Part shown: piece by piece, positions 7,740 through 57,615 of the stretch
Layout of the letters: the number at the start of each line of letters is the position of its first letter
Position numbering within the stretch: the stretch's first letter is position 1
Assembly (NCBI RefSeq): GCF_030209575.1
Contig: NZ_JARVRS010000001.1
Coordinates: 2,728,001 to 2,792,000, forward strand
DNA from: Leifsonia sp. fls2-241-R2A-40a
GTDB taxonomy: Bacteria > Actinomycetota > Actinomycetes > Actinomycetales > Microbacteriaceae
Length of the DNA: 64,000 nucleotides
Reading direction: 5' to 3'
Program-made: the position numbers and the translations under genes
The notes under the pieces: generated by a model
What the model was told of the DNA's origin: nothing
What the model saw: only the letters and a program-made list of their open reading frames with translations
Database searches by the model: none

Positions 7740-9086
7740 GTGAGCGGACTCGGCACCGAGAGCACTGGCACCGAGAAGGCCCCCACCGAGGCCGACCTCG
7801 CGCCGGAGACCGAGCTCGCGACGGCCTCGCTGAGCTACCCGGGGGGCGTCGCGGAGTTCCCGATCCGTCCCAGCGTCGACGGTGCCTCGAGCATCGACTT
7901 CTCCACCCTGACCAAGCAGACCGGGCTCACCAGCCTCGACTACGGCTTCGTCAACACGGCGGCCACGCGCTCCTCGATCACCTACATCGACGGCGAGCAG
8001 GGCATCCTGCGCTACCGCGGCTACCCGATCGAGCAGCTCGCCGAGAACTCCACGTTCCTCGAGGTCGCCTGGCTGCTCATCCACGGTGAGCTCCCGACGC
8101 CGGCCGAGCTGGCGGAGTTCGACGAGCGCATCCGCCGTCACACCCTCCTGCACGAGGACCTGCGCCGCTTCTTCGACGCGCTCCCGCACGACGCGCACCC
8201 GATGTCGGTGCTGTCGAGCGCGGTCTCCGCGCTGTCGACCTTCTACCAGGACTCGCTGAGCGTGCACGATCCCGAGCAGATCGAGCTGTCGACCATCCGT
8301 CTTCTCGCGAAACTCCCGGTGATCGCCGCGTACGCGCACAAGAAGAGCCTGGGCCAGGCGTTCCTGTACCCGGACAATTCGCTGAGCTTCGTCGACAATT
8401 TCCTGCGCCTCAACTTCGGCACGCTGGCCGAGCCGTACGAGGTGAACCCTGTGCTGTCGCGCGCGCTGGAGCGTCTGCTGATCCTCCACGAGGACCACGA
8501 GCAGAACGCCTCCACCTCGACCGTCCGTCTGGTCGGCTCGACGCAGGCGAACCTGTTCGCCTCGGTCTCCGCCGGGATCAACGCCCTCTACGGCCCGCTG
8601 CACGGCGGCGCGAACGAGGCCGTGCTTCAGATGCTCGCGGGCATCCGCGACTCCGGCGAGAGCGTCCAGAAGTTCGTGGAGCGGGTGAAGAACAAGGAGT
8701 CCGGCGTCAAGCTGATGGGCTTCGGTCACCGCGTCTACAAGAACTTCGACCCGCGCGCCAAGCTCGTGAAGCAGTCGGCGGACGAGGTGCTCGAAGCGCT
8801 CGGCGTGCACGACCCGCTGCTCGACATCGCGAAGGAGCTGGAGGAGGTCGCTCTGGCCGACCAGTACTTCGTCGACCGGAAGCTGTACCCGAACGTCGAC
8901 TTCTACACGGGCGTGATCTATAAGGCCATGGGCTTCCCGACGCGGATGTTCACGGTGCTGTTCGCGATCGGCCGGCTCCCCGGATGGGTGGCCCACTGGC
9001 GCGAGATGAACCTCGACCCGCAGACGAAGATCGGCCGCCCGCAGCAGCTGTACGTCGGCTCCCCGGAGCGCGACCTCGGCCGCTGA
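7740..9086 (+). CDS. gltA: Citrate synthase
   Basis: 448 residues, type II length. The citrate synthase signature GFGHRVYKNFDPR is at about 327-339, with the LHGGANEAV motif before it and the usual C-terminal GWVAHWREM segment. It condenses oxaloacetate and acetyl-CoA at the TCA-cycle entry. I chose the GTG at 7740 because AGGAGG lies 4 nt upstream; an earlier in-frame GTG at 7683 has no ribosome site. The first 60 residues are a low-complexity extension (Thr, Glu, Ala) before the conserved domain. Confidence 0.95.
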   Translation: MSGLGTESTGTEKAPTEADLAPETELATASLSYPGGVAEFPIRPSVDGASSIDFSTLTKQTGLTSLDYGFVNTAATRSSITYIDGEQGILRYRGYPIEQLAENSTFLEVAWLLIHGELPTPAELAEFDERIRRHTLLHEDLRRFFDALPHDAHPMSVLSSAVSALSTFYQDSLSVHDPEQIELSTIRLLAKLPVIAAYAHKKSLGQAFLYPDNSLSFVDNFLRLNFGTLAEPYEVNPVLSRALERLLILHEDHEQNASTSTVRLVGSTQANLFASVSAGINALYGPLHGGANEAVLQMLAGIRDSGESVQKFVERVKNKESGVKLMGFGHRVYKNFDPRAKLVKQSADEVLEALGVHDPLLDIAKELEEVALADQYFVDRKLYPNVDFYTGVIYKAMGFPTRMFTVLFAIGRLPGWVAHWREMNLDPQTKIGRPQQLYVGSPERDLGR

Positions 9087-48797: not shown

Positions 48798-49478
48798 TCA
48801 GACGGCCCGGAGGACCGCGACGACCTTGCCGAGCACTGTCGCGAAGTCGCCGAGGATCGGCTCGAAGTTGGAGTTCCGGGGCAGCAGCCACGTGTGGCCG
48901 TCGCGCTGCCGGAAGACCTTGACGGTCGCCTCCTCGTCGAGCATCGCCGCGACGATGTCCCCGTTCTCGGCCGTGTTCTGCGCGCGGATGACCACCCAGT
49001 CCCCGTCGCAGATGGCCGCGTCGATCATCGACTCTCCGACGACCTTCAGCATGAACAGTTCGCCGTTGCCCACGAGCTGGCGGGGGAGCGGGAAGACCTC
49101 GTCCACCTGCTGCTCGGCCGTGATCGGGATGCCCGCGGCGATGCGGCCGACCAGGGGGACCATGGCGGCGTCGCCGACCGGCGTCTGGTTCTCGTAGTCC
49201 GGAGTCGCGCCGGAGGACGATGGCAGGTCGATGAGGATCTCGAGCGCGCGCGGGCGGTTGGGGTCGCGCCGCAGGTAGCCGCTCAGCTCGAGCTGGTTCA
49301 GCTGGTGCGTCACCGAGGAGAGCGACGAGAGGCCGACGGCGTCGCCGATCTCGCGCATGCTCGGCGGATAGCCGCGCTGGCTCACGGAGCGCTGGATCAC
49401 ATCGAGGATCGCCAGCTGCTTGTCGCTCAGGTTCTTGCGGCGGCGTGTGCCTCCGCGGGCCTGGTTGTCGTTCGACAC
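48798..49478 (-). CDS. lexA: SOS repressor LexA
   Basis: 226 residues. N-terminal winged helix-turn-helix (about 20-75, [24 protein letters not shown]), cleavage site Ala115-Gly116 in GRIAAGIP, and the Ser150/Lys187 dyad in GESMIDAAI and EEATVKVF. It represses DNA-damage genes until RecA filaments trigger self-cleavage. Its own promoter overlaps a LexA box, so it is autoregulated. Confidence 0.97.
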
Positions 49479-49569
49479 GGGCGTCCTCTCCTGGCCTTCG
49501 GGCGTCCGCCGGGATGGGTCCCGGCAGGAATGTCGGTGGTACCTGATCTGATGTCCTCAGACAGTCGAA

Positions 49570-49598
49570 ACTGTATCCGCGTCGGGAAGGGAAGACAA
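49570..49598 (-). promoter_or_regulatory. lexA promoter
   Basis: Minus strand: -35 TTGTCT (49593-49598), 17 nt, -10 TACAGT (49570-49575). The LexA box at 49596 covers the -35. Confidence 0.65.
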
Positions 49599-49609
49599 AC
49601 ATGTGTTCG
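49596..49609. promoter_or_regulatory. LexA box at the lexA promoter
   Basis: CAAACATGTGTTCG matches CGAACNNNNGTTCG at 9 of the 10 fixed positions. Confidence 0.75.
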
Positions 49610-49654
49610 AGCGTGTCGCCAACTTTTCCGGCAAATAGGCCAAATGAGCGCGCC

Positions 49655-49683
49655 TTGCGGATTCAGACATTCGAAGATACATT
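49655..49683 (+). promoter_or_regulatory. Promoter of the LysM protein gene
   Basis: -35 TTGCGG (49655-49660), 17 nt, -10 TACATT (49678-49683). The -10 lies inside the LexA box at 49672. Confidence 0.65.
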
Positions 49684-49685
49684 CG
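49672..49685. promoter_or_regulatory. LexA box of the LysM protein gene
   Basis: CGAAGATACATTCG, two mismatches to CGAACNNNNGTTCG. The wider sequence is almost the same as at recA: TCGAAGATA, two variable bases, then TTCGGAAC. Confidence 0.7.
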
Positions 49686-49726
49686 GAACACAGCTTCGCA
49701 CCCGCGAGCCTGAGGAGGTCACGAGC

Positions 49727-50107
49727 ATGAGTGCAGTACTGATGAGCGAGTCGGTTCCTACCCTTCGTGCGGTCCCGCCGCTCCCCGAAGGAGCGCGTGT
49801 GCGCCTGCGCCTCACGCGCCGCGGCCGTGCAGTGCTCTCGGCCCTCGTCGCACTCCCGCTGGTGATCGGAGCCCTCGTCTTCGCACTGAACGGCGGAGGC
49901 GCCGTCGCGAACGGCGAGCAGGCCCACGTCAGCTTCCAGTACGTCAGCGTCGAGTCGGGCGACTCCCTCTGGTCGGTGGCGCAGCGCGTGGCCCCGAACG
50001 CCGACCCCCGCGACGTGATCTCCGACATCGTCTCGCTCAACGGCCTCGACTCCGCCGTCGTGTCCCCGGGGCAGCAGCTCGCCATCCCCTCGAAGTACGC
50101 GCACTAG
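49727..50107 (+). CDS. SOS-induced LysM membrane protein, probable cell-division inhibitor (YneA/DivS/ChiZ type)
   Basis: 126 residues from the ATG at 49727, with GAGGAGG 8 nt upstream. One membrane helix (about 35-54), then an extracellular LysM domain at about 71-122 (YVSVESGDSLWSVAQRVAPNADPRDVISDIVSLNGL). Genes with this design next to lexA (yneA in Bacillus, Rv2719c in Mycobacterium, divS in Corynebacterium) stop cell division after DNA damage. The divergent position and the LexA box over its -10 fit this role. Confidence 0.85.
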   Translation: MSAVLMSESVPTLRAVPPLPEGARVRLRLTRRGRAVLSALVALPLVIGALVFALNGGGAVANGEQAHVSFQYVSVESGDSLWSVAQRVAPNADPRDVISDIVSLNGLDSAVVSPGQQLAIPSKYAH

Positions 50108-50109
50108 TC

Positions 50110-50129
50110 CGGTCGCACTCCGGCGACCG
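50110..50129. terminator. Bidirectional hairpin between the LysM gene and rsgA
   Basis: CGGTCGC and GCGACCG pair over 7 bp with a 6-nt loop in the 31-nt gap between the two convergent stops. Confidence 0.45.
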
Positions 50130-50138
50130 TCGGGCTCG

Positions 50139-51161
50139 TCAGTGCCCTCGGGCTCGGCGGTACTCTCGGGCGAACCGCGAGTATTCGGTTCCCTTGTTTC
50201 GGCGCTGGGGATTCTCACGACGTTGCATGAACTCTCGTTCTCGCACGAGCGCGAGGTAGCGTCGGTAACGTTCTCTCGAGATCGCGCCGCTTTCGGCGGC
50301 GCGGCGGACGGCGCAGCCCGCATCCTGGGTGTGGGAGCAATCCGTGAACCGGCAGGATTCGGCGAAGGCTTCGATGTCGGTGAAGACTTCCTCGAGCGGC
50401 GCACGTGTCGACACTCCGAGTTGTCGTATGCCCGGCGTGTCGATGATGACGCTCACTCCGCCGGGCAGGGGAGTGATGGTCCGGGCGGTCGTGGTGTGCC
50501 GGCCTTTTCCATCGCGCTCCCGCACGGCCTGCGTCGCCTGGACGTCGGTGGAGGACAGCCTGTTCACCAGGGTGGATTTCCCGACCCCGGAGTGACCGAG
50601 AAGCACTGCCGACATCGGTTCGCTGAGGAGATCTCCCAGCGTCTGGATCCCCTCGTCTGTGACCGCCGAGGTGACGGTCGTATCGATGCCGGGTGCTGAC
50701 GCCGCGATGACCTCGAGGGCGTATCCACGTTCGCGGTCAGAAAGCTCCTCGACCTTCGTCACGAGGAAGTGGGGAGTGGCACCCGACTCCCATCCGGTGA
50801 CCGCCAGCCTCTCGACGAGTCCCGGTCGCATAGCCTCCCTGGCCGTCAACGTCAGGAGGACGAGATCGACATTGGACACGAGGGGCTGGACCTCGCCAGA
50901 TGACTTCGCCCTGGTGAGGACGTGGTAGCGCGGTGCAAACCGCACGGACGCCTCTCCCTCGTCTCCCGGCGAAATCCATGCCCAATCGCCCACCAAGACA
51001 TCCCGATCGCCGGGCAGCGTGGCGGCATGTTCTGCGCCGGACGGGTCCAAGGCGCTGATCGAGCGTCGATCAACGCGTGAGACCCGACCGAGCCATGCAT
51101 CCGGAGGGCGGGCGACGCTTTCAGCCAACCGTCTCGCTGTGGATGTCAGTCCCAGTGCCAT
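50139..51161 (-). CDS. rsgA: Ribosome small-subunit GTPase RsgA, last gene of the peptide operon
   Basis: 340 residues. OB-fold N-domain, circularly permuted GTPase with TKVEEL-like G4 before Walker A LLGHSGVGKSTLVNRL (about 187-202) and DTPG, and a zinc knuckle with Cys/His in ESCRFTDCSHTQDAGCAV near residue 270. RsgA proteins check late 30S assembly. The ATG lies 15 nt inside the end of the M16 gene and has GGAGGA upstream, so it is co-translated with the peptide operon. This is an odd home for a housekeeping gene, and its codons share the lower GC bias of the operon. It could be the only rsgA or an extra copy with a protective role. Confidence 0.92.
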   Translation of the reverse strand: MALGLTSTARRLAESVARPPDAWLGRVSRVDRRSISALDPSGAEHAATLPGDRDVLVGDWAWISPGDEGEASVRFAPRYHVLTRAKSSGEVQPLVSNVDLVLLTLTAREAMRPGLVERLAVTGWESGATPHFLVTKVEELSDRERGYALEVIAASAPGIDTTVTSAVTDEGIQTLGDLLSEPMSAVLLGHSGVGKSTLVNRLSSTDVQATQAVRERDGKGRHTTTARTITPLPGGVSVIIDTPGIRQLGVSTRAPLEEVFTDIEAFAESCRFTDCSHTQDAGCAVRRAAESGAISRERYRRYLALVREREFMQRRENPQRRNKGTEYSRFAREYRRARGH

Positions 51162-52381
51162 CTGATTCCTCCGCTTTCGTCCTCGTGGCCGATGAACTCG
51201 ACAGGCGATGACGAGAGGACTCCCGCCAGCGCCGCGACCGACGCTGGGCGAATGCGATCGATAGCCCGGATGACTTCCGCAGGCGAGAACCGGCGCCGCC
51301 GCTCCCAGGAACTCGCCAGTGCGCTCACCCGCCTCGGAAGATCGTCATAGGCGATCAAGGTCCCCGTCCTCAGATGTGCTTTCGCCACGTCGACTCGTTC
51401 TGCGAGCAGCGGATCTGAGGCGAGGTCGTGCATAGCGTCCGCCATTGCTCGCGCTGCCGCATCCTCGTCTGATGTAGCCACGGTGGCGAATGCGCTGATC
51501 AGCCCGATCGTGCCGTAGTCGGTATAGAACGTACGCGGGGAGTAGGACAGTTGCCGATCGGTTCGGAGCTGTCGGACGAGCAGCGACGAGAAGCCTCCAC
51601 CGAGAAGCGCGACGAGGACATTCGCAACCGCACGGTGTTCGCCGCTGCGGTTGGGAACCGTGTAACACGAGAGCAGATGCGTGTGACCGCGCTGCGTGTC
51701 GGCTTTGCGAATATGGAGCACGCGCAGTTTCGCCGGCGATGCCGAGGTAGCACCCGATGTCTTGGGCGGCGCGGAGCCATGTTGCCGAGCACCTGTCGCG
51801 AGGCCGAGGGCGTCAGTGTTCGCGGGGCCGCTCGTGAAGATGGTGATGTTTCCGGGTCGATAGTGGTCTGACCAGAACCGGTGTGCTCCCGCCAACCACT
51901 CGCTTGTGCCCGGGGCCATCGATCTCTGGCTGAACAGGTGCTTCTCTGCGACACGCGACAGCGCACGCAGGGGGTCACCTTGCTGAATCGCCCGTTCTGC
52001 AGCGATGATTCGCTGTTCCGCTTCCACCGCGCTGACAGAGAGTTCTGGCTGGAGGATCATGCGATGGAGTTCGTCGAGCGCGATCGCCGCCTGGTCATTG
52101 GGAACGGTCACCCCGAACGATGTGAAATCGCGAGCGGTGGCTGCCGTCGGTCGCGCGCCGAGCTCCTCCAGCGATCGAGTGCGGGTGCTCAGCGGCGTGC
52201 CGTCGGCACGACGCAGGACGAGGTGCTCGACGAGATGCGCGAGGCCGCACGCGCTTTCCGGATCGCTGCCGTATCCGGTGCCCACGCGGACTTCGAAGCA
52301 CTGGATGCGGCGCCCGCGAAGACGCTCGCTGATAACCAGGATGCCGTCCGCAAGGATGCCGATCGATAGCCCGTCCCTCAC
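51146..52381 (-). CDS. M16-family zinc peptidase of the peptide operon
   Basis: 411 residues from the GTG at 52381, whose first bases overlap the permease stop (GTGA). The zinc motif HLVEH (His49, Glu52, His53) is intact, and Glu129, 76 residues after His53, fits the third ligand. The second lobe has LLGGGFSSLLVRQLRTDRQLSYSP, the M16 substrate-arm signature. Single-domain M16B enzymes usually act as homodimers. M16 peptidases process leader peptides in other systems (PqqF/PqqG, AlbE/AlbF), so cleavage of the 31-residue peptide is a fair inference. No signal peptide, so it should act before export. Confidence 0.88.
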   Translation of the reverse strand: MRDGLSIGILADGILVISERLRGRRIQCFEVRVGTGYGSDPESACGLAHLVEHLVLRRADGTPLSTRTRSLEELGARPTAATARDFTSFGVTVPNDQAAIALDELHRMILQPELSVSAVEAEQRIIAAERAIQQGDPLRALSRVAEKHLFSQRSMAPGTSEWLAGAHRFWSDHYRPGNITIFTSGPANTDALGLATGARQHGSAPPKTSGATSASPAKLRVLHIRKADTQRGHTHLLSCYTVPNRSGEHRAVANVLVALLGGGFSSLLVRQLRTDRQLSYSPRTFYTDYGTIGLISAFATVATSDEDAAARAMADAMHDLASDPLLAERVDVAKAHLRTGTLIAYDDLPRRVSALASSWERRRRFSPAEVIRAIDRIRPASVAALAGVLSSSPVEFIGHEDESGGIRWHWD

Positions 52382-53160
52382 GAGAGATCGACGCGGGCCG
52401 TTGCTCGCGCTTGTTGCTCGAAGTGGCGAAGGAGCACCAAGCTCATCACCAGCCAGATCACGGCGACGCAGGTCTCCACACCGCACTGGACCCAATAGTC
52501 GCCTGTGCCGGCTCCGCTCAGAGACCTGATGCCTTCGATGGCGTGGCTGCTGGGCAGCACCGCACCGATCCAGGCCAGAGGTGCCGGAAGGTCCGACGAT
52601 GCGATATTTGCTCCGGAGGTGACGAGCATCACCAGGTAGGTCCCGGTGGCGAGTTGGTAGATATCGCGGTAGATCAAGCCGAAGGCGCTGAGGGCGAGGC
52701 CGAGAGTCGAGCAGGAGAAAGCCGCAAGCACCACTGCGACTGCGTAGAGACCGATGTCCTCCGGCGGAAAGGGCAGGCCCGCCACGAGGAACCCGAATAC
52801 GGAGATGACGACGGAAACGGCGATGCCGCACACCACGCCGGGGATCAGCCGGCCGACGAAGACGGCCGTCCGGGGCGCAGGCGAGGCGAGCAGAGCCGAC
52901 AGGGTGCCGAACCGTCGTTCGTCGGCGATCACGCTCACCATTCCCCCCACTCCGGCCGCGGCCGTCGCTTGGACGGCGTTTCCGGTGATGAAGAATTGCT
53001 GGCTTCCATAACCATTCGCGTTGCCGAGCGTGACGAAGAAGATCGTCTGCAACGCAGGGGTGATGAGGAGCGATGCCACGAAGAGGGCAGGTGTGTTCCA
53101 AGCGAAGAGCGCCCGGTAACCGAGGCGGCCGGAGATCAGGGCCGTATTGAAGAAGGTCAC
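52378..53160 (-). CDS. ABC-2 type permease (second)
   Basis: 260 residues, GTG start. Six predicted membrane segments, with the ABC-2 pattern of a long loop after helix 2 (VIADERRFGTLSALLASPAPRTAVFVGR) and a C-terminal helix ending in a basic tail. It pairs with the permease encoded upstream and the ATPase to form an exporter. The 4-nt gap before it and the GTGA overlap after it show tight coupling. Confidence 0.85.
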   Translation of the reverse strand: MTFFNTALISGRLGYRALFAWNTPALFVASLLITPALQTIFFVTLGNANGYGSQQFFITGNAVQATAAAGVGGMVSVIADERRFGTLSALLASPAPRTAVFVGRLIPGVVCGIAVSVVISVFGFLVAGLPFPPEDIGLYAVAVVLAAFSCSTLGLALSAFGLIYRDIYQLATGTYLVMLVTSGANIASSDLPAPLAWIGAVLPSSHAIEGIRSLSGAGTGDYWVQCGVETCVAVIWLVMSLVLLRHFEQQARATARVDLS

Positions 53161-53164
53161 GTCG

Positions 53165-53917
53165 TCACCTCAATCTCAAGGTTCCGCGTCGACGCGCCAG
53201 AACGTCCACGCGGTACAAGAACAGAATCCCGGCGACTCCGTACATCGCTGCCAACGCGACTGCCGCGGCCGCGGCCCCCCACGCGCCGGAGCCCGATATC
53301 GCCCCGTCCAGGGCATCCATCCCCCATCCGAGGGGAAAGAGGTGACCGGCGGCCGAAAGCGGCGGCCACAGTGCCGCAGACGGCACGACGAGACCGCACG
53401 CCAGCCAGATCGGATATTCCATGACGTTCGTGATTTCTATGGCGTGGCGGGTCAGAACGTAGAGGCCCGCGAGAAGCGTGCCCATCGAGACGAGGGAGAC
53501 CAGGACCGCAATGAGTGCGGCAATGAGTCCCCACGGATCAGAGATGGCGATCGGCCCCAGGCGCGCGAACGCGATCGCCATGACGGAGACAGCGGCAAGC
53601 GAATAGACACCCAGGGTGACGGTGGCGGCCGTGAAGCCGAACACGGGGGCCACGAGTGAGCGCGGTGCGCCGATCAAGAATTCCAACGTGCCGGCGAAGC
53701 GCTGCATGAACAGCGCCTCCGCTGCGCCGAACATCGTGGCGGACCAGGCTCCGAGAAGTCCCGCGCCCAAGATGGCCCGCAGCGAGGCCTCCCCGCCGGA
53801 CATCAACAGCGTGACTCCTCCGTACGCCAGCGGCGTCATGAGAGACATCCCCAAGAAGAACGGCGAGCGTGAAAGGAGCCTGAACTGCAGCCACCAGGCA
53901 GCTACCAGCAGTCTCAC
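53165..53917 (-). CDS. ABC-2 type permease (first)
   Basis: 250 residues, GTG start overlapping the ATPase stop. Six membrane segments and the ABC-2 loop FMQRFAGTLEFLIGAPRSLVAPVFG. It is similar in plan but not in sequence to the second permease, so the exporter is probably a heterodimer. Cargo is not shown by the sequence; the peptide encoded at the head of the operon is the obvious candidate. Confidence 0.85.
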   Translation of the reverse strand: MRLLVAAWWLQFRLLSRSPFFLGMSLMTPLAYGGVTLLMSGGEASLRAILGAGLLGAWSATMFGAAEALFMQRFAGTLEFLIGAPRSLVAPVFGFTAATVTLGVYSLAAVSVMAIAFARLGPIAISDPWGLIAALIAVLVSLVSMGTLLAGLYVLTRHAIEITNVMEYPIWLACGLVVPSAALWPPLSAAGHLFPLGWGMDALDGAISGSGAWGAAAAAVALAAMYGVAGILFLYRVDVLARRRGTLRLR

Positions 53918-54885
53918 GTCACCACCTCGTCCTTCTGCTCCTCGACGATCGCCACGTAGGCGTCCTCAAGCGTCGGCGTGCGCTCCAACGACGACCCCAC
54001 CGACAGGTGAGGAATGGCTCGCAATACGTCGACAAGGCGGGTGGAGCTGCCGTTGCCAACGCGAACGGACAGGAGATTGACTGGTCCTCGGCTCTCGATG
54101 TCGAGGCCTGACACACCGTCGAGCGCCCGCACGTCAGCCTCCGAGCGTCCGAGTTCGTCGCGCACTTCGACCTCGATGACGCGTTCGAGAGTCACGGACG
54201 ACTTGATGTCATCCGGTGAGCCCACCTGGCGAACTCGTCCGCCCACCAATACGGCGACTCGATCACAGAGGATGTCCGCCTCGAACATCTCGTGTGTTGT
54301 GATGAGGATGGTCTTGCCGCGACCCTGCAGCTCTTTCGTGAGGTCCCGGAGCGATCGAGCTGCCACCGGGTCCAGGCCGGAACTGGGTTCGTCCAGGAAG
54401 ACGACTGCCGGGTCATGGATCAAGGCCCGGGCGATATGCAGACGCTGCTTCATCCCACGCGAGAATGTCTCAACCCTCGAGTCTGCGCGCTCGTGAAGAT
54501 CGACCAGGTCTAAGACCTCATTCACGCGACGGGCGACGTCGCGGCGGGGAACGTCGTACAGCTGCGCGGCGAAGAGGAGGTTGTCGCGAGCCGAGAGGCG
54601 GTCGTACAGTCCTCGCTCACCGCCGAAGGCCACACCGATCATTCGTCGTACGGTCTTCATCTCTCGAACCACGTCGTGGCCGCACACCTCGGCAGCGCCG
54701 CTCGATGGGGTGAGCAATGTGGTGAGGATGCGCACGAGTGTGGTCTTTCCCGCCCCGTTGGGCCCCAGGATGCCGAACAATTCGCCCTCGCCGATCGAGA
54801 GGTCGATGTCTGTCAGCGCTGGAATCGCTCGTTGGCCCCGCTTGGCGTGGTAGACCCGCGAGAGTCCCGAGATTTCAATGGTCAT
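53914..54885 (-). CDS. ABC transporter ATP-binding protein
   Basis: 323 residues from the ATG at 54885, with GAGG 9 nt upstream; an ATG at 54900 is in frame but lacks a ribosome site. Walker A GPNGAGKTT (41-49), signature FSRGMKQRL, Walker B VVFLDEPSSGLDP and switch His in TTHEM. A C-terminal extension of about 100 residues (DUF4162-like) is typical of drug and bacteriocin ABC-2 exporters. The start overlaps the end of the TPR gene by 11 nt. Confidence 0.92.
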   Translation of the reverse strand: MTIEISGLSRVYHAKRGQRAIPALTDIDLSIGEGELFGILGPNGAGKTTLVRILTTLLTPSSGAAEVCGHDVVREMKTVRRMIGVAFGGERGLYDRLSARDNLLFAAQLYDVPRRDVARRVNEVLDLVDLHERADSRVETFSRGMKQRLHIARALIHDPAVVFLDEPSSGLDPVAARSLRDLTKELQGRGKTILITTHEMFEADILCDRVAVLVGGRVRQVGSPDDIKSSVTLERVIEVEVRDELGRSEADVRALDGVSGLDIESRGPVNLLSVRVGNGSSTRLVDVLRAIPHLSVGSSLERTPTLEDAYVAIVEEQKDEVVT

Positions 54886-56131
54886 GGCCCTGTTCCTCAT
54901 CTGATGTCAGCCAGAAGTACGGCGTCATCGTGGATACGCGTCGTGCGCGCGCACGGTCGCCCAGTTCGACGTAGGCGCGATAGAGCATCTTGCGGACCTG
55001 AAGGACGACGCTGGGGTCGTACTCGTCGCGGAGAAGACCGAGGGCGTCCCTCAGGAGCGGGGCCGCGGTGGCGGCATCTCCGCGGACGAGATGGATGTAA
55101 GCCAACAGGGAGAGAGTGGTGTGAATCGCCCCGGGGTCGTGTCGTTGCGCGAACTCGCGCAATCGCTGCAGTCGCTCGATGGCGAGGTCATGTCTCTGCT
55201 GCGACAAATCGAGTTGGGCCGCGTTGAGTTCGGCCATCCAGAGGTAGCGCGCAGCCTCGGGGCTTCCGATGCTCCGCGCCGCGCCGGTGTCGTGAGCCGC
55301 GGCCAAGCGGCTGATGGCATCGCAGACGAGGCGGCTACTGCCGGCGATGTCGCCTCGCCGCAATGCGAAAAGAGCGCGCAAGTTCGAGGAGAGACCGAGG
55401 GCCACATCGCGATCTGCTTCTGATGAATTCTCGATACAGTGCTCCGCGCGGTCGACGATGCCGTCTGCGCGGTCGAGGTCTCCTCGTCGTTTCGCCGTCA
55501 GACTCGCCCAGCGCAGATAGACGAAGAACTGCTCGGGGGTGCCCACGAGGTTCTTGACAGAATCTTCGAAGAGCCGATCGCACGTGTCCGTGTCACCGGC
55601 AAGGCCGACGACCACTCCTGCTAGCCCTGAGGTCAGTCCGCGCAGCCGTCCGTCGGGAAAGGCGGGATCGCTCGCGTAGGCGTAGGCCGTTGCTTCTGCC
55701 TCGTCCCAGTTTCCGAACGCGTTGACGTATTTGAGTAGCGATTCGTACACGTCCTCCCTTGGGGCTCTGGCGAGTTCACGAGGCGCGAAGGCGGCTGACC
55801 CGGACGACGCCGACCGGCCGGCCGTGAGAACATCCCAGCCCGGACCGTCGACGATCTCCGCGCTTCGCGCCGTGTTTTGGAGTGCTCTGAGAACGCCGGG
55901 CGATGCTTCGTCCCATGCTCGGATGTTGAGGAGGAACATCTGCCGGGAGCTCTCATCCCGGCGCAGCCGGAGGTCGGTGAGGGGAGCGTGGTCACCCCGC
56001 GAAGCGCGGACGAACTCGTTGCCGGACAGCCGGGCGTTCTTCATCGTCGTAACGAAGCGTGGGTGGAGGGCCGCGCGGGCTTCCGCGTGGTGGTCGGTTA
56101 CGTACTCTGCGACGAGCTGACTTGCCTTCAT
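54875..56131 (-). CDS. Helical-repeat (TPR-like) protein of the peptide operon
   Basis: 418 residues, no membrane segment and no recognisable helix-turn-helix. From about residue 130 to 400 it is a series of amphipathic helix pairs with TPR character (for example LRWASLTAKRRGDLDRADGI, LAYIHLVRGDAATAAPLL, MLYRAYVELGDRARAR). The N-terminal 130 residues match nothing I know. TPR proteins without a DNA-binding domain bind short peptides in the Rap/RRNPP group; here the neighbour is a 31-residue peptide gene, so a receptor, chaperone or immunity role is plausible but unproven. The ATG has a GGAA-repeat ribosome site. Confidence 0.8.
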   Translation of the reverse strand: MKASQLVAEYVTDHHAEARAALHPRFVTTMKNARLSGNEFVRASRGDHAPLTDLRLRRDESSRQMFLLNIRAWDEASPGVLRALQNTARSAEIVDGPGWDVLTAGRSASSGSAAFAPRELARAPREDVYESLLKYVNAFGNWDEAEATAYAYASDPAFPDGRLRGLTSGLAGVVVGLAGDTDTCDRLFEDSVKNLVGTPEQFFVYLRWASLTAKRRGDLDRADGIVDRAEHCIENSSEADRDVALGLSSNLRALFALRRGDIAGSSRLVCDAISRLAAAHDTGAARSIGSPEAARYLWMAELNAAQLDLSQQRHDLAIERLQRLREFAQRHDPGAIHTTLSLLAYIHLVRGDAATAAPLLRDALGLLRDEYDPSVVLQVRKMLYRAYVELGDRARARRVSTMTPYFWLTSDEEQGHDH

Positions 56132-56136
56132 GTCGT

Positions 56137-56154
56137 CCTTCCTTCCTTCCTTCC
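56137..56154. repeat. GGAA tandem repeat forming the ribosome site of the TPR gene
   Basis: On the coding strand four and a half copies of GGAA run up to 5 nt before the ATG at 56131. Gain or loss of a unit would change the Shine-Dalgarno region without touching the protein. Confidence 0.75.
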
Positions 56155-56184
56155 AGGGGCCGGCACAGCATGGGCCGGCCCCTG
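56154..56184 (-). terminator. Hairpin directly after the peptide gene (attenuator or mRNA stabiliser)
   Basis: CAGGGGCCGGC and GCCGGCCCCTG pair perfectly over 11 bp with a 9-nt loop, 9 nt after the peptide stop and 22 nt before the next start. No T-run follows, so read-through is expected. This position is typical after precursor genes of bacteriocin operons, where it raises peptide mRNA over the rest. Confidence 0.75.
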
Positions 56185-56193
56185 CGAACCCGA

Positions 56194-56289
56194 TCAGTAC
56201 ATTGCTGCGCCGTGGTTCCAGCCGGCGAAGAGGGTGGCGATGTAGCCCTGCTCATTGGACATCTCCACCGTGATCTCGTCGTAGTTCAT
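56194..56289 (-). CDS. 31-residue peptide, probable precursor of an exported peptide
   Basis: Begins MNYDEITVEM and ends FAGWNHGAAMY, then TGA. GGGAG stands exactly 7 nt before the ATG. The first 13 residues carry four acids and no bases; the C-terminal 17 are hydrophobic and aromatic (Tyr, Phe, Trp, His, Tyr) with glycines and no charged Asp, Glu, Lys or Arg. This split is that of an acidic leader and a neutral core. No Cys, so neither a lantibiotic nor a sactipeptide; no acid at core position 7-9, so not an ordinary lasso peptide. It heads the ABC exporter/M16 operon and is followed by a strong hairpin. No close relative known to me. Confidence 0.72.
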   Translation of the reverse strand: MNYDEITVEMSNEQGYIATLFAGWNHGAAMY

Positions 56290-56309
56290 TCGCTTGCTCC
56301 CTAGAAGGA

Positions 56310-56325
56310 ACCTGCCTCAGCAGGT
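56310..56325. repeat. Inverted repeat in the peptide gene leader
   Basis: ACCTGC and GCAGGT pair around a 4-nt centre, 21 nt upstream of the peptide ATG. Operator or leader hairpin. Confidence 0.45.
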
Positions 56326-56395
56326 CAACGGAGACTTTCCGTTCTACCTCTGAGGACGAAGCATCGACCGAGGTGATGACGCGGGTGTTATCCCT

Positions 56396-56417
56396 AACGC
56401 ACGCATTCTGTTGCGTT
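56396..56417. promoter_or_regulatory. Operator-like inverted repeat between hisC and the peptide gene
   Basis: AACGCA-N10-TGCGTT, with the inner repeat ACGCA-N6-TGCGT sharing the right arm. It lies midway in the 180-nt divergent gap. No clear -35/-10 pair for the peptide operon is visible around it. Confidence 0.4.
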
Positions 56418-56457
56418 GGCCGCTGTCATGCAGCCGACCAGCTCCTGCGCCTCTGAC

Positions 56458-56463
56458 TACGAT
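56458..56463 (+). promoter_or_regulatory. -10 box TACGAT of hisC (leaderless)
   Basis: TACGAT is followed by 6 nt and the GTG at 56470. Confidence 0.5.
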
Positions 56464-56469
56464 TGAAGA

Positions 56470-57615
56470 GTGACTTCTCTCTCCGAGCTCCCGATCCGGG
56501 ACGACCTCCGTGGCCGTTCCCCGTACGGCGCTCCGCAGCGTCCCGTGCCCGTCGCGCTGAACGTGAACGAGAACACGCATCCGGTGCCGGAGGACGTCGC
56601 GGCCGACATCGTCGCGCGGGTCGCCGCAGCGGTCGGGGGCGTCAACCGCTACCCCGATCGCGAGTTCTCCGAGCTGCGCGCCGCGTTCGCGCGGTACCTC
56701 GGACACGACCTCACCCCGGAGAACATCTGGGCGGCGAACGGGTCGAACGAGGTGCTGCAGCACATCCTGCAGGCGTTCGGGGGCCCGGGACGCACACTGC
56801 TCGGCTTCGCGCCCACCTACTCGATGTACCCGCTGCTCGCGTCCGGCACCGGCACCGCTTACCTCGCCGGTGCGCGGGATGCCGACTACGAGCTCTCGCC
56901 CGAGACCGCGGTCGCCGAGATCCGCCGGCTCGACCCGGACATCGTCATCCTCTGCTCGCCGAACAACCCGACGGGCACACCTCTCGGACTCGACACCATC
57001 GAGGCCGCCTACGACGCCTCCCGGGGGATCGTCGTCGTCGACGAGGCCTACGCGGAGTTCATGCCGGAGGGAGCGCCGTCCGCTCTGTCGCTGCTGCCGG
57101 GCCGCCCGCGGCTGCTGGTCTCCCGCACCATGAGCAAGGCCTTCGCCTTCGCCGGCGCGCGCGTCGGCTACCTCGCCGCCGACCCCGCCGTGAACGACGC
57201 CCTCCGACTCGTCCGGCTGCCGTATCACCTGTCGGCCATCACGCAGGCCGCCGCACTCGGGGCGCTGGCCCACTCCGGCGAGATGCTGGCGACGGTCGAC
57301 GAGATCCGCGGACAGCGCGACCGGCTGGTCGCCGAGCTCGCACGGCTCGGCTACACACCTCACCGGAGCGGAAGCAACTTCGTGCTGTTCGGTGGCGTGG
57401 ACGACCCGCACGCGACGTTCGAGGCGCTCGCCGAGCGCGGCATCCTCATCCGTGACGTCGGGATCCCGCACCACCTGCGGGTGACCGCCGGCACGGAGAC
57501 GGAGACGACCGCCTTCCTCGAGGCGCTCGCCGCGCTGGGCCGCCCCGGCGCTGCCGCCGCGGCGGACGAGGCCCCGGAGCGGGCGCAGGACGCCCCGGTA
57601 GACTCGGACGCATGA
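56470..57615 (+). CDS. hisC: Histidinol-phosphate aminotransferase
   Basis: 381 residues, GTG start. Fold-type I PLP enzyme with [13 protein letters not shown] at the N-terminus, [16 protein letters not shown] and the PLP lysine Lys223 in [16 protein letters not shown]. It makes histidinol phosphate. First gene of hisC-hisB-hisH-priA; the stop overlaps the hisB ATG by 4 nt. The last 30 residues are an Ala/Glu-rich tail. Confidence 0.95.

Follow-up and report, generated by a model that had tools for sequence, protein, structure and literature searches.

The window analysed here, 64,000 nucleotides of DNA from Leifsonia sp., carries an operon whose core consists of a gene for a short peptide, a gene for a tetratricopeptide repeat (TPR)-like protein and the genes of an ABC exporter, with an M16 metallopeptidase and a second copy of the GTPase RsgA as accessory members. 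The peptide is a real gene under protein-level selection, it is followed by a stem-loop at a conserved position, and the arrangement recurs in a narrow and patchy set of genomes. These results suggest a secreted peptide of a new kind, with ribosomes as its possible target. Seven open reading frames (ORFs), all on the minus strand, fill positions 50139-56289; they are given here with the two signals that accompany the peptide gene.

56297-56302, minus strand: Shine-Dalgarno-like AGGGAG, 7 nt before the ATG of the peptide gene
56194..56289, minus strand: gene for a 31-residue peptide, MNYDEITVEMSNEQGYIATLFAGWNHGAAMY; relatives in 7 other loci, dN/dS 0.23-0.43 among four peptides
56154..56184, minus strand: stem-loop beginning 9 nt past the peptide stop; stem of 11 bp without interruption and not followed by a U-tract
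54875..56131, minus strand: TPR-like protein of 418 residues; N-terminal motif HAPLTDLRLRRD, no helix-turn-helix (HTH) match
53914..54885, minus strand: DrrA-like ABC ATPase; likely ATG at 54885, alternative start at 54900
53165..53917, minus strand: ABC-2 permease A, 250 residues
52378..53160, minus strand: ABC-2 permease B, 260 residues
51146..52381, minus strand: M16 metallopeptidase of 411 residues, start GTG at 52381; HxxEH and downstream Glu intact; accessory
50139..51161, minus strand: RsgA-type GTPase, the genome's second copy; P-loop, DTPG and zinc residues intact

An earlier reading of this DNA, the first-pass annotation, had named the seven minus-strand genes, and its identities, including the two ABC-2 permeases and the single ATPase, were borne out by the ORFs and by family matches. 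Pfam and NCBIfam back the RsgA gene (PF03193, 1.7e-38), the M16 gene (both halves matched, at 2e-15 and 3.6e-16), the permeases and the ATPase, the last scoring 272 bits against TIGR01188, below the cut-off of 312; the TPR protein has weak TPR matches only, and the 31-residue peptide matches no Pfam or NCBIfam family. Five overlapping junctions and one 4-nt gap had been described. The gap is real, but the overlaps number four of the six junctions: TPR/ATPase (11 nt from the ATG at 54885, or 26 nt from 54900), ATPase/permease A (4 nt), permease B/M16 (4 nt) and M16/RsgA (16 nt), while the peptide and TPR genes are separated by 62 nt with the stem-loop inside. The ribosome site of the peptide gene is good, although the word 'perfect' had been too strong. 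The operon genes have 57-66% G+C against 69.9% for the whole window (0.63-0.67 in 1-kb steps at 49-57 kb, positions 49000-57000, and 0.69-0.73 in the flanks), which fits acquired DNA.

The annotation had also proposed, as a test of its reading, that a short peptide gene should precede the TPR gene wherever the latter occurs. This was found at 8 of 9 loci including the window, in two families of one order, where a short ORF with a W-x-H motif stands directly before the same TPR gene; the exception is genome G269. Apart from the window peptide, the sequences are MDETYDAVVSEMSNTQGFVASLFAGWNHGAAMF in G023, MNENYDEIVAEMSDAQGFVASLFAGWNHGAAMM in G025 (start codon uncertain), MEHSYEDIVAEMQDPQGFVASLFAGWNHGAAMF in G018, MTEFDLDSISKEMNDGQGFVATLFASWAHAMKM in G014, the 26-residue MSVETIKAELKESDETVRDLSMPWAH in G116 and, from a family that we label f81, MSVKQIERIDKVVNRLKSKKGATFASTLSAWAHQSPR in G1101 and ...IVTRLTEQQAKTFAVIPAGWNHGAKI in G1285 (start codon uncertain). 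Likeness to the window peptide is clear in G023, G025, G018, G014 and G1285 and moderate in G1101, and the G116 peptide has little in common with the others beyond its place and W-x-H. The window peptide ends in GYIATLFAGWNHGAAMY and one peptide from another family in AVIPAGWNHGAKI; the string AGWNHG recurs in f81; the C-terminal residues of the eight are Y, F, M, I, R or H. The G1101 and G116 ORFs are weaker tests of peptide conservation because W-x-H partly guided their choice. As a check, we counted small ORFs that combine a ribosome site with W-x-H close to the end: the 19-kb G1101 stretch and the 5-kb G116 contig each hold a single one, which precedes the TPR gene, and the G269 stretch holds none. 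A single small ORF with W-[ANSG]-H, distant from the TPR gene, was seen across 16 loci of a further family (f91, see below), and none with W-[AN]-H in 10 further f81 stretches.

Coding-type conservation of this ORF, on which the earlier reading depended, is evident. Among the four most alike peptides, pairwise dN/dS is 0.23-0.43 over 27 codons, differences fall 30, 23 and 51 at the three codon positions, and 7 of 16 invariant residues show synonymous codon variation, from which we conclude that the peptide is a gene under selection at the protein level. Across the five peptides of the genus 11 residues are invariant, and the others are 47-71% identical to that of the window, which compares with 39-42% for the TPR protein, 22-30% for M16, 44-47% for RsgA and 51-62% for the exporter genes.

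An uninterrupted stem of 11-15 bp (taken as the longest such stem, with G-U pairs allowed) begins 3-15 nt past the peptide stop in all eight peptide loci. The window stem was equalled by 1 of 200 shuffles, and over the eight loci the stem scores were matched by 4 of 1600; the folding energy of the 68 nt past the stop lies at z -1.8 to -6.2. As a control we took the ends of the window's long open frames, a set that includes frames that are not genes; of these 114 ends, 9 had stems of at least 10 bp, the longest 13 bp. The place of the stem is conserved and its sequence variable, none of the stems carries a U-tract, and the window leader folded as a whole is no more stable than its shuffles (z -0.69). 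Operons that yield more precursor than enzymes, such as those for lantibiotics, carry a stem in this position.

Within the genus, 5 of 28 genomes, our own among them, encode the TPR protein. Beyond the genus, matches were obtained in 3 of 398 genomes of a family sample (our own, G116 and G269), in 7 of 296 of a class sample (our own and six others that matched weakly and in part, at E 4e-9 to 1e-5) and in 1 of 396 of a phylum sample (our own), and a wider profile gave 18 of 396 in an order sample (our own, 16 of family f91 and G1101 of f81); these searches scored 4-11 candidates per genome in evenly drawn samples, so that misses are likely. Within f81, searched under the same limit on candidates, 2 of 180 genomes matched (G1101 and G1285). 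A search for the TPR protein in plasmids, phages and viral contigs and one for the peptide in plasmids found none, and use of M16 as a search handle gave 49 pattern matches with no relative among them. An AGWNHGA DNA pattern had 8 matches in viral contigs, 2 inside long ORFs and 6 in short frames unlike the peptide, which we judged to be chance. Flanking ORFs vary between loci, although G023 and G025 seem by eye to share two flanking genes, and the differing flanks together with the patchy occurrence suggest that the operon spread horizontally. It is a rare bacterial operon and was probably acquired by horizontal transfer.

Downstream composition could be assessed at eight loci where that side is readable, G116 being excluded as its contig ends 250 nt past the second permease; in G1285 the TPR gene and the exporter lie on separate contigs that the assembly does not link. 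M16 is present in 4 of these 8 (the window, G023, G025 and G014) and absent from G018, G269, G1101 and the G1285 contig with the ABC and RsgA genes, whereas RsgA is present in 6 of 8 (the same four, G1101 and G1285 contig C10). These counts leave the peptide, the TPR protein and the exporter as the core, and M16 was rejected as the defining partner. The intact HxxEH-E motif that had been reported for the window peptidase holds: all four operon M16s preserve HxxEH together with a Glu 76 residues further along. The earlier proposal of a cleaved and exported peptide therefore survives in part: that a peptide is made on ribosomes and exported is still the best reading, but cleavage by M16 as a general step is not upheld. 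RsgA, which had been listed as an operon member without a role, is present and proved to be a more widespread accessory than M16.

Two further features of these loci were recorded. In G269 the TPR/exporter cassette, which lacks the peptide, sits between two 66-nt direct repeats (L015:4336-4401 and 8468-8533) that are 98% identical and whose ends resemble inverted repeats, perhaps marking a mobile cassette. The f81 TPR genes look interrupted, in G1101 by a TGA that lies in frame close to the N-terminus (L079:8677-8679) and by a change of frame in G1285 (L091, near 8050), for which assembly error, decay and recoding are options.

The RsgA of the operon is, on the evidence of its phylogeny, a dedicated and fast-evolving paralogue in the genus and not the housekeeping enzyme. 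All 28 genus genomes have an RsgA match at E<1e-10, four of them have two copies, and the second copies are exactly those of the operons. We reconstructed a tree of 49 rows, 31 of them housekeeping copies (27 genus genomes, G116, G269, G1101 and G1285; the G023 housekeeping copy, which has no locus, is left out). The 31 housekeeping rows form one side of a branch with support of 100/100 and the operon copies fall outside it; the four genus operon copies form one clade (97/92) on long branches, which, as the program warned, may attract. The two f81 operon copies were placed among f81 copies labelled stand-alone (12 labels, for 10 of which the surroundings were viewed, G1306 and G1318 not being among these), a placement by which RsgA was either recruited at least twice or repeatedly lost. 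All six operon RsgAs keep what we take to be the P-loop, GRHTTT, DTPG and the Cys/His zinc residues; at the presumed G4-like site the window protein has TKVE and the other operon copies have TKxD or SKAD. Both f81 genomes looked at, G1101 and G1285, have a housekeeping RsgA besides the subfamily copy. A widespread second RsgA subfamily without adjoining exporter genes was also seen in f81 (L121-L130 and L108:6212-7279), including a third RsgA in G1285.

We tentatively favour, at somewhat less than even confidence, an explanation in which a small peptide is made on ribosomes and secreted through the operon's exporter; the TPR protein would be its handler, M16 an optional trimmer and RsgA an optional self-protection of the ribosome. 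Translation of the short gene would give a precursor whose N-terminal half (YDEIxxEM) is acidic and helix-like and whose C-terminal half (QGxxAxLFAGWNHGAAM) is conserved and contains W-x-H, and the stem-loop past the gene may allow more of the peptide to be produced than of the proteins encoded downstream. The precursor would be bound by the TPR protein and passed to the ABC-2 exporter as the likely exit, and M16, where present, may trim the precursor or degrade returned peptide; these steps past translation are all predicted. The second RsgA would protect or re-check the 30S subunits of the producer, in which case the peptide would act on translation, and the secreted product is possibly a translation inhibitor. 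According to the accessible part of the literature, RsgA acts on the 30S decoding centre (PMC9032327), and loss of rsgA raises the gentamicin sensitivity of E. coli 2- or 4-fold (PMC10295648). Also in favour, WblC activates one of two S. coelicolor RsgA paralogues (PMC7157823), and a berninamycin producer is listed with a duplicated rsgA (PMC9290621). We consider it quite unlikely that the system amounts to a new class of ribosome-targeting ribosomal peptides, with a W-x-H core, maturation without a known enzyme of ribosomally synthesized and post-translationally modified peptides (RiPPs), and a duplicated RsgA as self-protection in place of rRNA methylation or a modified ribosomal protein.

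Several observations weigh against this explanation. G018 has peptide, TPR protein and exporter with neither M16 nor a second RsgA, so that neither is indispensable, and G269, likewise without M16 or RsgA in the operon, has TPR protein and exporter with no visible peptide ORF. Most genus peptides are more conserved than their TPR, M16 and RsgA partners, and many bacteriocins, being in an arms race, are not so highly conserved. RsgA of the same subfamily occurs in 67 of 180 f81 genomes at E<1e-30 (G1101 and G1285 included) in a search with the above limit on candidates, and the 10 other f81 RsgA stretches that were opened show no TPR gene or operon-like permease adjoining, though four contain an unrelated ABC ATPase; such stand-alone copies make the gene by itself no marker of the peptide system, and we rejected the idea that it is exclusive to these operons. 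The berninamycin entry is backed by duplication and by neither phylogeny nor cluster (PMC9290621), and the E. coli mutant is also more sensitive to cefotaxime (PMC10295648), so that the effect of losing rsgA is not specific to ribosome drugs.

One may postulate instead that the peptide, once exported, serves as a pheromone and that the TPR protein, functionally analogous to receptors of the Rap or NprR type, senses it, with RsgA and M16 as cargo or for the tuning of growth. In Firmicutes peptide pheromones are usually received by TPR proteins, the high conservation of the peptide fits a signal, and in f91 a response-regulator gene follows the relative of the TPR gene at 14 of 16 loci, the remaining two being truncated where the contig ends. 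The operon TPR protein, however, has no HTH match, the operon genes include neither a regulator nor a peptide re-importer, and a profile of eight TPR proteins searched against PDB found no significant RRNPP protein (NprR at E=1.1, with generic TPR proteins scoring better); we regard the pheromone as unlikely. The f91 loci were set aside as belonging to a different system, as all 16 are without exporter, M16, RsgA or peptide match and none has a W-x-H ORF near the TPR gene. As an observation in their own right, these TPR and regulator loci (L065-L078, L054 and L080; regulator typed in L067 as REC plus LuxR HTH, PF00072 and PF00196) may hold a Rap/ComA-like pair in actinobacteria, presumably reminiscent of Rap-ComA itself.

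Equally unlikely in our view is that the short ORF is a regulatory leader with no peptide product, on which ribosomes stall under a translation inhibitor, with the stem as attenuator and the exporter and RsgA as resistance to a foreign drug. The same high conservation is compatible with this, the conserved C-terminal half adjoins the stop with the stem directly after it and resistance-like genes downstream, and actinomycete whiB7/wblC is described, in the part of the source available, as controlled by an upstream ORF and terminator (PMC11550727). The 5' arm of the stem also pairs with the upstream 130 nt slightly above shuffles at all eight loci (z -0.15 to -1.24, or about -2.0 if the eight are summed as independent), a further point against an exported product. 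Yet no single locus shows marked alternative pairing, wider arms give z -0.36 to +1.03, U-tracts are missing from the stems, and the window region has no Rfam match at gathering scores. The N-terminal half also looks conserved in pattern by eye, and M16, like an oxygenase gene in G116, suits a processed peptide. Finally, the second RsgA might serve enzyme side-chemistry and not ribosomes, the peptide having a non-ribosomal target such as the membrane. B. subtilis CpgA (RsgA) is credited, in the accessible text, with hydrolysis of 4-phosphoerythronate as a second function (PMC12445079), but no operon gene hints at a phosphorylated metabolite and the intact GTPase and zinc motifs of all six operon copies speak otherwise, so that we hold this to be very unlikely.

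Compared with known systems, the favoured peptide-export reading finds partial parallels. Subtilosin and pyrroloquinoline quinone (PQQ) operons also have M16 peptidases; the seven-gene operon has no radical SAM enzyme of their type. Class V lanthipeptides (cacaoidin Cao15, lexapeptide LxmP1/P2) likewise combine a short precursor gene, an ABC transporter and an M16 protein proposed to cut the leader (PMC8068269). Our operon differs from such M16 RiPP operons in having no lanthionine or radical SAM enzyme and in having M16 at only half of the assessable loci. Leaderless or unmodified bacteriocins pair a small peptide with an exporter without modifying enzymes, as here, but the N-terminal half of our peptide looks like a leader, and we know of no RsgA or TPR partners among them. 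Microbacterium, in which daptides occur, belongs to the same bacterial family as the window host. Daptides likewise have short precursors and an ABC transporter and, as far as the accessible text goes, need a decarboxylase, an aminotransferase, a methyltransferase, a RiPP recognition element (RRE) peptidase and a C-terminal Thr (PMC10036551); the window operon has no such gene, and Thr is not the last residue in any of the eight peptides. The S. coelicolor RsgA paralogues SCO6149 and SCO5211 offer a likeness, a second RsgA tied to translation stress: in the available part of the source one is counted among the genes activated by WblC, a regulator of resistance to translation-targeting antibiotics (PMC7157823). 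Our copy differs in lying within a peptide-exporter operon.

As in RiPPs, an encoded precursor under protein-level selection is present (eight loci; dN/dS for the four most alike peptides). The first-pass annotation had reported no modifying enzyme, which is correct for the window operon, where Pfam and NCBIfam scans found no known RiPP modifying enzyme, but not for all relatives: in G116 a 2OG-Fe(II) oxygenase gene (2OG, 2-oxoglutarate; L016:275-955, PF13640, 1.1e-7) ends 36 nt before the W-x-H peptide gene and is a candidate peptide-modifying enzyme. A PADLOC scan of the six operon proteins other than the peptide, for signature genes of known anti-phage defence systems, gave only ATPase-domain matches to the ABC ATPase and so no such system. 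Among the matches listed in mainly open-access literature, judged by titles and the openings of abstracts, none describes the operon or the peptide. The peptide family is undescribed, and its signature, AGWNHG or W-x-H followed by a stem and then TPR and exporter genes, opens it to mining, synthesis and testing. Should RsgA prove to be an immunity factor, it would be an example of a checkpoint of ribosome assembly that was duplicated to protect the producer, and the 30S decoding region would be indicated as the target ahead of any chemistry.

A sigma-70 scan gave no lead. By eye, an inverted repeat, ACCTGC-TGAG-GCAGGT, was spotted at 56310-56325, just upstream of the peptide gene, and is a possible operator.

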